From Chryseobacterium gleum (GTDB lineage: Bacteria; Bacteroidota; Bacteroidia; UBA10329): a DNA stretch of 64,000 nt. Within the stretch, counting starts at the first letter, position 1; the number at the start of each line of letters is the position of its first letter. Both the position numbers and the translations under genes were made by a program. Shown one piece after another: positions 34,623 through 41,657 of this stretch. The stretch spans positions 1-64,000 of the forward strand of contig CAMDOM010000004.1 of NCBI GenBank assembly GCA_945903645.1, written 5' to 3'. A model generated the notes under the pieces. The model was not told the origin of the DNA and searched no databases. It was given only the letters and a program-made list of their open reading frames with translations.

Positions 34623-35863
34623 TCAGGGTCAACGCATCAAACTCAAAACAATACGGTTTCAATGTTGCTATAATGTATTGATTGTAAATAATATAGAGGT
34701 TATTTTTGATTGGAAATTTGTATATTTATGTGACAATCAATTAGATAAATATGAAAGCTACATCAATTTCAGGCATTTTTTCAAGGATGGAAGACCCTCG
34801 TGTGGAGGGTAAACAGAATACAAAATGACCGATATTATTGGTATTACCCTAGCCGCAGTGCTATGCGGTGCGGAGAGTTGGAACGAAATTGAAATGTTCG
34901 GTGAGGCAAAAAAGGGATGGTTTAGCACGTTTTTGGAACTGCCAGGGGGTACACCCTCGCATGACACATTCAATAGGTTTTTCGCTTTTTTAGAGCCAGA
35001 CTCCTTTGAAAGCTGCTTTAGAGAATGGACTAGTTCATTTGCTCAGTTGTCGGAGGGTTCGATTATCAATATTGATGGCAAAACTATTAGGGGCGCCAAG
35101 CAAGCAGTGAGCAGGTCTTACGTTCACATGATAAGTACTTGGGTGGGAGAGAATAGCACGTTGCTCGGTCAGCTCAAGGTGGACGACAAATCCAATGAAA
35201 TTACTACCATTCCTCGACTGCTTGATGCCCTGATGATAACAGGTACGATGATAACCATTGATGCCATGGGCTGCCAGAAGGATATAGCCCAAAGCATAGT
35301 GGAAGGTAGAGAAAATTACATTCTGGCGGTAAAGGGCAATCACGAAACTCTTTTTGATGACATCCAAGCCTCTTTTCGAATGATGCCGCCTTTAGAAAAG
35401 GTTGAGACCCTAGACCTCGGCCATGGCAGGATAGAAACCAGACGATGTTCCATTATCACCGAACTTGGACTGATGGAGCATGCCCAAAGTTGGAAATCGC
35501 TCAATACTTTGGTGAGAGTAGACAGCGAACGATGCATTAAGTCAACCGGAGAAGTACAGACATCCACAAGGTTCTACATATCGAGCCTAAAGGCAGAGGC
35601 GAGCACCTTCATCAGAGCCATACGTCATCATTGGTCTATAGAAAACGGATTACACTGGGCGTTGGACGTGTCTTTTCATGAGGATGACCCCGAAAACGTG
35701 CTGGAAATGCTGCCCAAAACTTCTCAATCATCAATAGAATGGCCCTTACAGCACTCAAACAAGAACAATCCATCAAACTCGGAATCAAAAGCAAAAGACT
35801 CAACGCTGGTTGGAATCACGCATACCTTAGAACACTAATGAAATTTTGATGCGTTAACCCTGA
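34623..35863 (+). mobile_element. ISAs1-family insertion sequence, decayed
   Basis: The left end TCAGGGTCAACGCATCAAA (34623-34641) matches the reverse complement of the right end (35845-35863, TCAGGGTTAACGCATCAAA) at all but one position. The 1.24-kb span between these terminal inverted repeats holds a single transposase gene. No clear target-site duplication is seen. The element lies 59 bp from tRNA-Phe and 52 bp before mtaB. The transposase frame is broken twice, so it is unlikely to move by itself. Confidence 0.88.
34751..35849 (+). pseudogene. ISAs1-family transposase with two frameshifts
   Basis: Translation starts at ATG 34751 (MKATSISGIFSRMEDPRVEG) and hits TGA at 34826. The family sequence resumes one frame over (MTDIIGITLAAVLCGAESWN) and runs to about 35690. 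There the frame again loses register: beyond it the reading frame ends at 35838 with non-family sequence. The other frame gives RKRAGNAAQNFSIINRMALT and LGIKSKRLNAGWNHAYLRTL, ending at TGA 35849. Both breaks look like loss of one base in a homopolymer (AAAA 34822-34825 and CCCC 35688-35691). The DDE residues remain: NIDGKTIRG, ITIDAMGCQ and HHWSIENGLHW. Sequencing error in homopolymers is an alternative to decay. Confidence 0.9.
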
Positions 35864-38533: not shown

Positions 38534-39340
38534 ATGAACCTTGAACTGCTTACCCAAGAAGTTGCCGCCATAGCCCGCAAGGCTGCAGCCTTCATTTTGG
38601 AAGAACGGCAGCATTTCAGTTCGGGCGAAGTGGAAGTGAAAGGTCGCAACGATTTTGTATCATACGTGGACAAAGGTTCCGAACGCATCATTGTCAATGC
38701 CCTAAAATCTCTGCTACCCGAGGCTGGTTTTATTGCAGAAGAAGGCACCGAAGTGGCGTCAGATACTGCCCATCGCTGGGTGATAGACCCACTTGATGGC
38801 ACTACAAACTTCATTCATGGCATGCCATTTTTTGCGGTGAGCATTGCTCTATTGCACCAAGACGAACCCATTATTGGCGTGGTGTACGAAATCAATCGCG
38901 ATGAGATGTTTGCCGCGTTCAAAGGTGGTGGTGCCCAGTTAAACGGTGCGACCATTCATGTTTCCGATACCGCCAATGTAGCGTCTTCGCTTGTGGGCAC
39001 GGGTTTTCCATACTACGATTATCACCTGCTGGATGAATACCTCGCCCTGTTCAAGCATTTGATGCAATTTTCTCACGGATTGCGCAGACCGGGCTCTGCC
39101 GCTACAGACCTAGCCTATGTGGCTTGCGGACGATTTGATGCCTTCTATGAGTACAGCCTTAGTCCTTGGGACGTGGCAGCAGGAGTTCTTTTGGTAACAG
39201 AAGCCGGAGGCAGTGTATCTGATTTTAACGGGGGAAATACTTCCATTTTTGGTAAAACAATTGTAGCCACCAACGCACACGTTCAAAACGAAATGCTTGA
39301 TTTAGTTAGGCGATTTGGTTTGGCAAATCCTACGGTATGA
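38534..39340 (+). CDS. Inositol monophosphatase family protein
   Basis: A 268-residue magnesium-dependent phosphatase of the IMPase/SuhB/CysQ superfamily. Metal and substrate motifs are IAEEGTEVAS (the Glu ligand, about residue 77), WVIDPLDGTTNFIHGMPFFA (about 92-111) and YEYSLSPWDVAAGVLLVTEAGG (about 210-231). The natural substrate could be inositol phosphate, PAP or another sugar phosphate; the motifs do not decide. It has no signal peptide. Its TGA overlaps the ATG of the broken membrane-protein gene that follows (ATGA). Confidence 0.9.
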   Translation: MNLELLTQEVAAIARKAAAFILEERQHFSSGEVEVKGRNDFVSYVDKGSERIIVNALKSLLPEAGFIAEEGTEVASDTAHRWVIDPLDGTTNFIHGMPFFAVSIALLHQDEPIIGVVYEINRDEMFAAFKGGGAQLNGATIHVSDTANVASSLVGTGFPYYDYHLLDEYLALFKHLMQFSHGLRRPGSAATDLAYVACGRFDAFYEYSLSPWDVAAGVLLVTEAGGSVSDFNGGNTSIFGKTIVATNAHVQNEMLDLVRRFGLANPTV

Positions 39341-40188
39341 TGCTAAAGTCTGCAGGATTTCTGGCTGTACTACTTGTTCTCACTGGTTGTGGCAATCTTT
39401 CCACCATCCTCTAAGAACCAAAGACAACTCCAGAGACTTTTTTGGCTGCGCAACATTGGATAGTTATCCAATTAGGTGAAGCAGAAATTGTTATTTCTCA
39501 GCCCACTTCTTCCATTATCGTCTATTTCGTAGGGTTTTTCACCATCCTTGTAGGCTTCAAATTCTACCAGCAGAGCGATAACCAACAATCGAAATTGTGG
39601 TGGGCTATTGGTCTATTCCTAATAGGTTTTGGAGCGCTCTTAGCAGGCATTAGTTATCATGCATTTGGGTACGAAATCAAATGCCGTGGCAGAGAATTTT
39701 GCGCCTACACCAGTTGGTGGGAAGTACATTATATGCTTTTGTCTGCATTAGGAATGAATGCTTTTCTAATAGCCAGCGCCTATTCCTCTACCAAAGGAAT
39801 TTTTCAAAAATCCATAGTGGTTTAAGCTGTAATTCATTCCATCTTCTACAGCGTGCTTTTGATGTACGGAGCCTTTGTTCCTGTTCAGTTCTTGGTATCG
39901 TTTGAGTTTTTAATGCTTTCATCCGCACCTACTTTGGCGTTTGTGCTTGGCTTGCACACCAACGCATTTCGCATTTCGCATGATGCTATAAACCGAAACC
40001 TAAGCAACGCATGGCTAGTTTTCCTTTTGGTTGGCGGTGCTTATGGAACTTGGTTGGCCCTTGGACTTAAACAAACCTTGTGGAACCACGGCATTTGGTT
40101 CACCGAAAATGATGTGCTCCACGTGGGCATGATTGGTTGGGTTTATTGTCTGCTAAAGCGATTGCCCAAAGTACTTCGCGACCAGTAG
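39337..40188 (+). pseudogene. Membrane-protein gene interrupted by two in-frame TAA codons
   Basis: From ATG 39337 one reading frame stays protein-like for 284 codons but contains TAA at 39412-39414 and again at 39823-39825. The first part reads as a lipoprotein-type leader (MMLKSAGFLAVLLVLTGCGN). After the first TAA comes a protein with several membrane segments (SIIVYFVGFFTILVGFKFYQ; LWWAIGLFLIGFGALLAGIS). It continues after the second TAA without any frame change (AVIHSIFYSVLLMYGAFVPV ... DVLHVGMIGWVYCLLKRLP). Neighbouring genes use TAA as a normal stop, so this is best read as nonsense decay. The family is not recognised; about six to seven helices are present. The ATGA overlap with the IMPase gene suggests it was once co-translated. 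Confidence 0.7.
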
Positions 40189-40280
40189 GTGATACTCAGA
40201 AAGTATTCCTACTACTTTTCTTCTTTCTCTACTTCTGCCATTTATAGCTTATGTTCGCTGATGGATATACACCCAAAGCA

Positions 40281-41657
40281 ATGACCAAAAAAACTTCGGT
40301 TTTCGTAGCACTTGCCCTATTTACAGCAGTGGCGCTGTTGCATTTAATGCATGTGAAGCAATGGATTACCTTCGCTCCTAGCCTGCTTTTCTCCATGCGT
40401 TGGGCTTTTGTGGCTTCATTGGTGGTATTTGCCGTTCTAAAACGTTCGCTCACTACGTGGATTTTGGTTTCAATGGCCATTGGTGTTGAAATAGGCCACG
40501 ACTTTCCTGAGTTTTCGCAAAATCTCCAAGTGCTCAGTAAGATATTCTTAAGGATGGTTAAAACCATTGTGGCTCCCTTGCTTTTTGCCACGCTTGTGGT
40601 AGGTATTGCAGGCCACAGCAACTTGAAACAGCTAGGTCGAATGGGCTGGAAATCGCTACTTTACTTTGAAGTAGTCACTACCTTGGCTTTGGTTATTGGT
40701 TTAGCATTCATCAATTTAACCCAAGCTGGAGTGGGTATCGAAGTGCCTGAATCTCTTTTGGTAGAACTGCCCAGCACCACACCAAAAACATGGCAGCAGC
40801 ACATTATCGACATCTTTCCGGAGAACATTATCAAGTCGGTATATGAAGGAAATGTGCTACCCATTGTAGTGTTTAGCGTGCTCTTTGGCATTGCACTCGC
40901 TATGCTGAGCGAAAAGAAACGCAAGCCCATGCTCGACTTTGCGGAGAGCCTATCGGAAACCATGTTCAAGTTTACCAACCTCATTATGTATTTCGCACCA
41001 TTTGGAGTAGGTGGTGCCATTGCAGTAACGGTAGGGCATTTGGGCATTGATGTGCTTAAAAACCTCTTCCTTTTGCTCATAACCTTGTATTTGGCTTTGG
41101 GGGCATTTATCCTGCTGGTGTTGCTGCCTGTAGCGTTGGCCATTCGCTTGCCCATCAAGAAATTCATTCAAGCCATTCGCGAGCCCGTTTCCATTGCTTT
41201 TGCCACCACCAGTTCGGATAGCGCATTGCCCATTGCGCTCGAAAACATGGAGAAATTTGGGGTGCCAAGAAAGATTGTTTCGTTCGTAATACCCACGGGA
41301 TACACCTTCAATTTGGATGGCACAACACTATATTTATCACTAGCATCGGTGTTTGTAGCGCAAGCCGCTGGCTACGACCTTAGCATTGGGCAACAACTCA
41401 TTATGGGACTTACCCTAATGCTTACCAGCAAAGGCGTTGCTGCTGTGCCCCGCGCATCATTGGTTATTCTTATTGCCACTGCCGAAACCTTTAACCTCCC
41501 TTTGTGGCCCATTATGGCCATTTACGGTATTGACGAACTAATGGACATGGCGCGCACTTCCGTAAACGTGATTGGAAACTGCTTGGCAAGTTGCGTTATC
41601 TCCCGTTGGGAAGGAGAGTTTGACGATGCCAAAGCCTTAGCTTTCACTGAGGATTAA
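40281..41657 (+). CDS. Dicarboxylate/amino acid:cation symporter (DAACS family)
   Basis: A sodium- or proton-coupled transporter of the GltP/GltT/DctA type. The family core is present: the serine-rich hairpin FATTSSDSALPIALENMEKF, then IVSFVIPTGYTFNLDGTTLY and GVAAVPRASLVIL in hairpin 2 and helix 8. About eight transmembrane helices are seen across 458 residues. The start is set at ATG 40281 (MTKKTSVFVALALFTAVALL); an earlier ATG at 40251 would add ten polar residues. Substrates of the family are glutamate, aspartate or C4-dicarboxylates; which is used cannot be read here. Confidence 0.88.
   Translation: MTKKTSVFVALALFTAVALLHLMHVKQWITFAPSLLFSMRWAFVASLVVFAVLKRSLTTWILVSMAIGVEIGHDFPEFSQNLQVLSKIFLRMVKTIVAPLLFATLVVGIAGHSNLKQLGRMGWKSLLYFEVVTTLALVIGLAFINLTQAGVGIEVPESLLVELPSTTPKTWQQHIIDIFPENIIKSVYEGNVLPIVVFSVLFGIALAMLSEKKRKPMLDFAESLSETMFKFTNLIMYFAPFGVGGAIAVTVGHLGIDVLKNLFLLLITLYLALGAFILLVLLPVALAIRLPIKKFIQAIREPVSIAFATTSSDSALPIALENMEKFGVPRKIVSFVIPTGYTFNLDGTTLYLSLASVFVAQAAGYDLSIGQQLIMGLTLMLTSKGVAAVPRASLVILIATAETFNLPLWPIMAIYGIDELMDMARTSVNVIGNCLASCVISRWEGEFDDAKALAFTED

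Follow-up and report, generated by a model that had tools for sequence, protein, structure and literature searches.

The locus and its reading frame

The window, by which we mean the whole stretch of 64,000 nucleotides that was analysed, contains on its forward strand a gene whose single reading frame (39337–40188; 852 bases, or 284 codons when the final TAG at 40186–40188 is counted) is interrupted by two in-frame TAA codons, at 39412 (codon 26) and at 39823 (codon 163), and by no other stop. That there is one 284-codon frame broken solely by two TAA codons had already been claimed in a sequence-only reading of this DNA, and this is confirmed on the sequence, in which there is no frameshift. 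The features of the locus are the following.

38534–39340, forward strand: intact gene of the inositol-monophosphatase family, upstream of the broken gene
39337–39411, forward strand: piece 1 of the broken gene, start and first helix, with a lipobox-like LTGC
39412–39414, forward strand: first in-frame TAA, codon 26
39415–39822, forward strand: piece 2, beta hairpin, TM2 to TM4 and the first part of TM5
39823–39825, forward strand: second in-frame TAA, codon 163, inside TM5
39826–40188, forward strand: piece 3, remainder of TM5, TM6 to TM8, conserved block GIWFxENDVLHVGMIxW and final TAG
40251–41657, forward strand: intact DctA/GltP-type symporter gene, downstream of the broken gene

The two flanking genes were assigned with NCBIfam, the phosphatase gene below the equivalog cut-offs and the symporter gene below the cut-offs. 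The broken gene starts with ATGATG, which overlaps the TGA stop codon of the phosphatase gene.

The frame is not the product of chance, since its three pieces all align along one homologue of 285 amino acids (L006, from another genome of the genus) and the two ORFs that follow the stops both match relatives. In tblastn, the ORF at 39442–39825 (piece 2) matches all 26 relatives described below, and the ORF at 39853–40188 (piece 3) matches 25 of them, the single miss being L025, which is truncated by its contig end. Piece 1 aligns to the N-terminus of L006 and of its relatives. Start codons are found after both stops: TTG at 39442 in piece 2, and GTG at 39853 and ATG at 39862 in piece 3. A restart ATG had been proposed near the second break; it exists, at 39862, but the position initially given for it, 39859, is a TTG.

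The phosphatase gene is present in nine of nine genomes of the genus, that of the window included, and in seven of the eight loci of the other genomes it is adjoined by an Lgt gene. In none of these eight genomes was the broken gene or the symporter gene found within about 1.5 kb behind the phosphatase gene. In five of the eight loci (L066–L070; Pfam assignment on L066 only) the phosphatase gene is directly followed by an NfeD-like gene, which in the genome of the window sits on another contig (G000:C21:21000-22265). Given this displacement, there is a rearrangement breakpoint immediately behind the phosphatase gene, where the broken gene is located, which accords with an acquisition.

A DDE transposase gene (34751–35849, forward strand; PF13808 and PF01609), which adjoins tRNA-Phe, lies about 3.5 kb upstream of the broken gene. 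Its main frame of 337 amino acids seems to be without start and end, both of which appear to continue in other frames; the transposase gene is probably broken by two frameshifts. A stretch of 33 amino acids that is 88% identical to the tail of the transposase occurs elsewhere in the genome, at G000:C20:34390-34488.

Relatives of the protein and possible signs of decay

Twenty-six homologous loci (L006–L031), from many phyla, were found by scanning the genome collection. They were retrieved via two short peptide patterns, neither of which spans a stop position; any invariance within these patterns is therefore partly built in. The host labels, which cover MAGs as well as genomes, are Bacteroidota, Spirochaetota, Actinomycetota, Thermodesulfobacteriota, Bacillota, Hydrogenedentes and Archaea; L023, which is intact, comes from Desulfosediminicola flagellatus. 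None of the 26 relatives has an internal stop within the match, and each is a single gene, with the qualification that L025 is truncated at the end of its contig, that L014 runs to a contig end before any stop codon and that L028 has undetermined residues. The family can be described as one of sparsely scattered 8-helix membrane proteins of the DUF6962 type, with archaeal MAGs among the hosts. No neighbour gene was seen to be shared by the 11 of 26 loci that were inspected by eye, so that no function is deduced from the neighbourhood.

The nearest relatives of the window gene come from a Bacteroidetes MAG (L024, 52.5% identity) and a Leptospirales MAG (L010, 50.4%), followed by two Hydrogenedentes MAGs (L011, 47.0%, and L015, 43.9%). 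In a tree of 25 rows, which omits L025 and L028, the window gene pairs with L024 (support 96/84), and then with L010 (100/98). Among the other eight genomes of the genus, one (G003) has a homologue, L006, which is uninterrupted, has the same kind of leader and is 38% identical. L006 is placed outside the group formed by the window gene, L024 and L010, on a long branch whose placement is unsure; the two copies within the genus are therefore probably independent acquisitions. The family is rare among the relatives of the host, with a match in 2 of 59 genomes, the window's genome counted. Two wider searches, both counting the window's genome, gave 3 matching genomes of 395 (one match being weak and partial, with an internal stop, E 8.4e-4) and 2 of 395 (one of them weak, E 9.5e-4). 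A search with the PF22285 profile found nothing in the nine genomes of the genus, where the window gene itself was missed, nor in 14 control genomes; since the controls gave nothing either, this search is uninformative on absence. A horizontal acquisition of the gene is probable in view of its scattered occurrence, its position in the tree and its altered surroundings.

The structure of the protein was predicted with AlphaFold2 from 23 intact relatives, with L024 as the first sequence (mean pLDDT 92.9, pTM 0.88). The model of L024 consists of an N-terminal helix (residues 2–26), a beta hairpin and seven long helices. The first stop corresponds to residue 29 of L024, just past helix 1, and the second to residue 166, within the helix 157–184. 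Since the leader corresponds to the first helix of the relatives themselves, all three pieces belong, as modelled, to one 8-helix membrane protein. The sequence-only reading had seen a lipoprotein-type leader followed by a polytopic membrane protein. As for the leader, the LTGC is present, but it is not part of a separate module, the segment being the helix with which the full-length protein begins. Cysteine occupies the lipobox column in 13 of 26 relatives. A strict lipobox pattern fits the window sequence and 7 of the 26; in the model of L024 the helix runs on through its Cys up to residue 26.

Whether codons 26 and 163 encode sense residues in orthologues was the comparison that the sequence-only reading had put forward, and the answer is that they do. 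A sense residue is found at codon 26 in 25 of the 25 relatives that have a letter there, and at codon 163 in 26 of 26. The residue at codon 163 is mostly Tyr (21 of 26; Phe in two, and Val, Trp and Leu in one each), while the column of codon 26 is more varied, with Tyr in 12 of 26, His in four, Ser in three, Phe and Leu in two each, Gln and Met in one each, and one gap. The four nearest relatives all have Tyr at both columns. That both stops fall at Tyr columns needs no special cause, because Tyr codons supply 29–58% of the single changes that lead to TAA (30% in L024, 29% in L010, 44% in L011 and 58% in L015). Two hits at Tyr were considered as a sign of recoding, and this idea was rejected for the same reason.

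Apart from the two stops, little in the gene is clearly decayed, and its private changes, counted within the set of the five nearest sequences, show no overall excess: 12 in 94 columns for the window gene, compared with 13 in 95 for L024, 9 in 91 for L010, 3 in 85 for L011 and 8 in 90 for L015. The 12 changes are distributed as 2 of 5 in piece 1, 9 of 59 in piece 2 and 1 of 30 in piece 3. When L015 is left out, the window gene has 19 in 109, versus 15 in 105, 12 in 102 and 20 in 110 for the other three. Indels with respect to L024 amount, after column 36, to one column at the extreme C-terminus. When neutral decay of L024 was simulated, the median number of changes between the first and the second stop was 14–16, and the chance of zero indels between the stops was 18–49% for assumed indel/substitution ratios of 0.05–0.2.

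In a leave-one-out test on 24 sequences (L008, L025 and L028 are omitted from this test, as from alignment A2), the window gene departs at 2 of the 24 columns that are invariant in the other 23, with Gly replaced by Ala at codon 90 and Gln by His at codon 108. Two such departures in 24 columns are also seen in L027 and in L030; five of the other sequences have one in 23, and the remaining 16 have none. The Gln of codon 108 is present in 26 of 26 relatives, and its invariance is not built in, because the search pattern that covers it allowed Gln or His. The leave-one-out score of the window gene, 332 bits, is the lowest of the five nearest sequences (348–393 for the others) and falls inside the range of the 23 members tested (236–404). 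Its end branch is the longest of the five-row clade, 0.81 versus 0.48 for L024, 0.43 for L010, 0.13 for L011 and 0.57 for L015. The evidence for relaxed selection is mixed: the data fit a recent loss but do not prove relaxation.

Origin of the two stop codons

We propose that the locus is a pseudogene, a gene for a membrane protein of the DUF6962 type (PF22285), probably of horizontal origin, that has recently decayed through nonsense changes, and we put the probability of this explanation at roughly 80%. An 8-helix gene of the DUF6962 kind would have been acquired horizontally, landing behind the inositol-monophosphatase gene, and two nonsense substitutions would then have silenced it, recently. 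No functional protein would be made, because translation would stop after 25 residues. Recent decay was one of the options considered in the sequence-only reading, and it is supported by the sense codons of the homologues and by the fact that none of the 26 is split. The nearby transposase gene also looks broken, which is cited as support for decay. We infer that the loss is real rather than an error of assembly, and also that it is recent, given that the frame is still free of frameshifts and that the gene has about the same low number of private amino-acid changes as its intact siblings.

An error of the assembly or of the consensus, or a chimera of strains, is nevertheless the main rival, because the species is represented by one draft genome only (105 contigs, 95.33% complete) and such errors are documented: PMC11017572 reports that many bacterial pseudogenes stem from errors of assembly, that coverage plays a role and that the occurrence of internal stops follows assembly quality. 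The living gene would then be intact, and one or both of the TAA codons, for each of which there is a single observation, would be artefacts of the draft consensus; the private changes of the window gene, no more numerous than those of the intact L024, agree with this. However, two independent substitution errors would be required within one gene of 852 bases, and the Gln to His change at a position where all relatives have Gln, together with the longer branch, hints at a real relaxation. A screen for two adjacent open stretches in the same frame, each of at least 80 codons, flagged six places in the window, this gene and the transposase region included, which argues weakly against an artefact. 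On balance we regard an error as unlikely.

The two remaining explanations keep the gene functional despite its stops, and both appear very improbable to us. If the two TAA codons were read through, for example by a near-cognate tyrosyl-tRNA, the product would be a full-length protein carrying Tyr at the two sites, which would suit the Tyr residues of the nearest relatives at both columns and the absence of an excess of private changes. In this one gene TAA would then be put to a special use, although it is the main stop elsewhere in this Bacteroidota genome. But TAA ends 19 of the 32 ORFs of at least 200 amino acids in the window and is the commonest stop there, and all 35 tRNA genes found in the genome (with Rfam, and read with ARAGORN) have sense anticodons. 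No suppressor tRNA reading TAA is among these 35, an absence that is not absolute because not all tRNAs are covered (the scoring took in 150 of 200 candidates, the Ile tRNA with anticodon GAT is missing, and the genome itself is incomplete). Given this stop usage and the tRNAs found, TAA acts as an ordinary stop in this organism, and a recoding of TAA was rejected. The gene moreover already uses TAT six times and TAC five times, Tyr codons are a frequent source of TAA in any case, and the Gln that all relatives keep is lost.

The other option raised in the sequence-only reading, the separate expression of three pieces, would give a functional split protein made of a lipoprotein-like peptide and two membrane fragments. 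The start codons after each stop and the single private change of piece 3 at 30 conserved columns speak for it. Against it, none of the 26 loci has orthologues split into short genes that share these boundaries, and the second stop lies inside the TM5 helix, not in a loop. The candidate start codons are within blocks common to the unsplit relatives; the ATG at 39862, for instance, is not a newly evolved start, because its Met is also present in L024. As for piece 2, its first start codon is a TTG, and its first ATG, at 39733, comes beyond TM2 and TM3. On these grounds separate genes were rejected, and we retain recent nonsense decay as the explanation of the two stops.

Comparison with known systems

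As a pseudogene, the locus resembles ordinary bacterial pseudogenes of the nonsense type, in which internal stops occupy sense positions of intact homologues and little else has changed. Nothing notable sets it apart from them, the two stops being both TAA and both at Tyr columns of the nearest relatives. It carries little weight as such: a patchily distributed membrane protein would have been lost again in one lineage.

DUF6962 (PF22285) is matched by L024, whose residues 66–275 score 40.2 bits against a Pfam cut-off of 27; at E ≤ 0.1 the profile matches 10 of 23 members of the family. The window gene differs in that all its pieces are below the cut-off of 27, piece 3 reaching 18.8 bits; its frame read through with X gives no match, nor does the genus-mate homologue L002. 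The relatives also differ from DUF6962 in carrying an additional N-terminal helix and the beta hairpin ahead of the core. Our literature search found no paper with the word DUF6962.

Structural comparisons place the model of L024 near the alkaline ceramidases. Foldseek against the PDB gave no match at E ≤ 0.001, and a sequence search of the PDB with the family profile returned only matches to BamE, which were rejected as chance-level (E 0.18 and above). In a second structural search, human alkaline ceramidase 3 (ACER3) ranks first (Z 14.3, rmsd 3.6, 218 aligned residues), with ADIPOR1 at Z 13.0 and unrelated 7-helix receptors (GPCRs) at up to Z 13.5. ACER3 belongs to the CREST superfamily of membrane hydrolases, which comprises alkaline ceramidase, the PAQR/adiponectin receptors, Per1, SID-1 and TMEM8. 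According to PMC3146951 and PMC9436119, these enzymes are defined by three His, one Asp and one Ser, arranged as SxxxH ... D ... HxxxH.

The model has seven core helices, as CREST does, and ACER3 ranks first, with the GPCRs nearly level. By their helix positions in the model, we tentatively equate three conserved sites of the family with the CREST motifs: a Ser (25 of 26), at the end of core helix 2, with the Ser of SxxxH; an acidic residue, Glu (25 of 26), where core helix 3 starts, with the Asp; and a His (25 of 25), where core helix 7 starts, with HxxxH. The His of SxxxH would then be replaced by Phe in 26 of 26, and the second His of HxxxH by Ile, Leu or Met (25 of 25). Judged from the model, the family is CREST-like in its layout and, because two of the three His sites are lost, not a member by the defining residues; for want of these His, it is expected to bind little metal. 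This by-product of the analysis is somewhat more useful than the pseudogene itself: a scattered family with a confidently predicted fold near that of the alkaline ceramidases, in which two of the three metal-binding His are missing.
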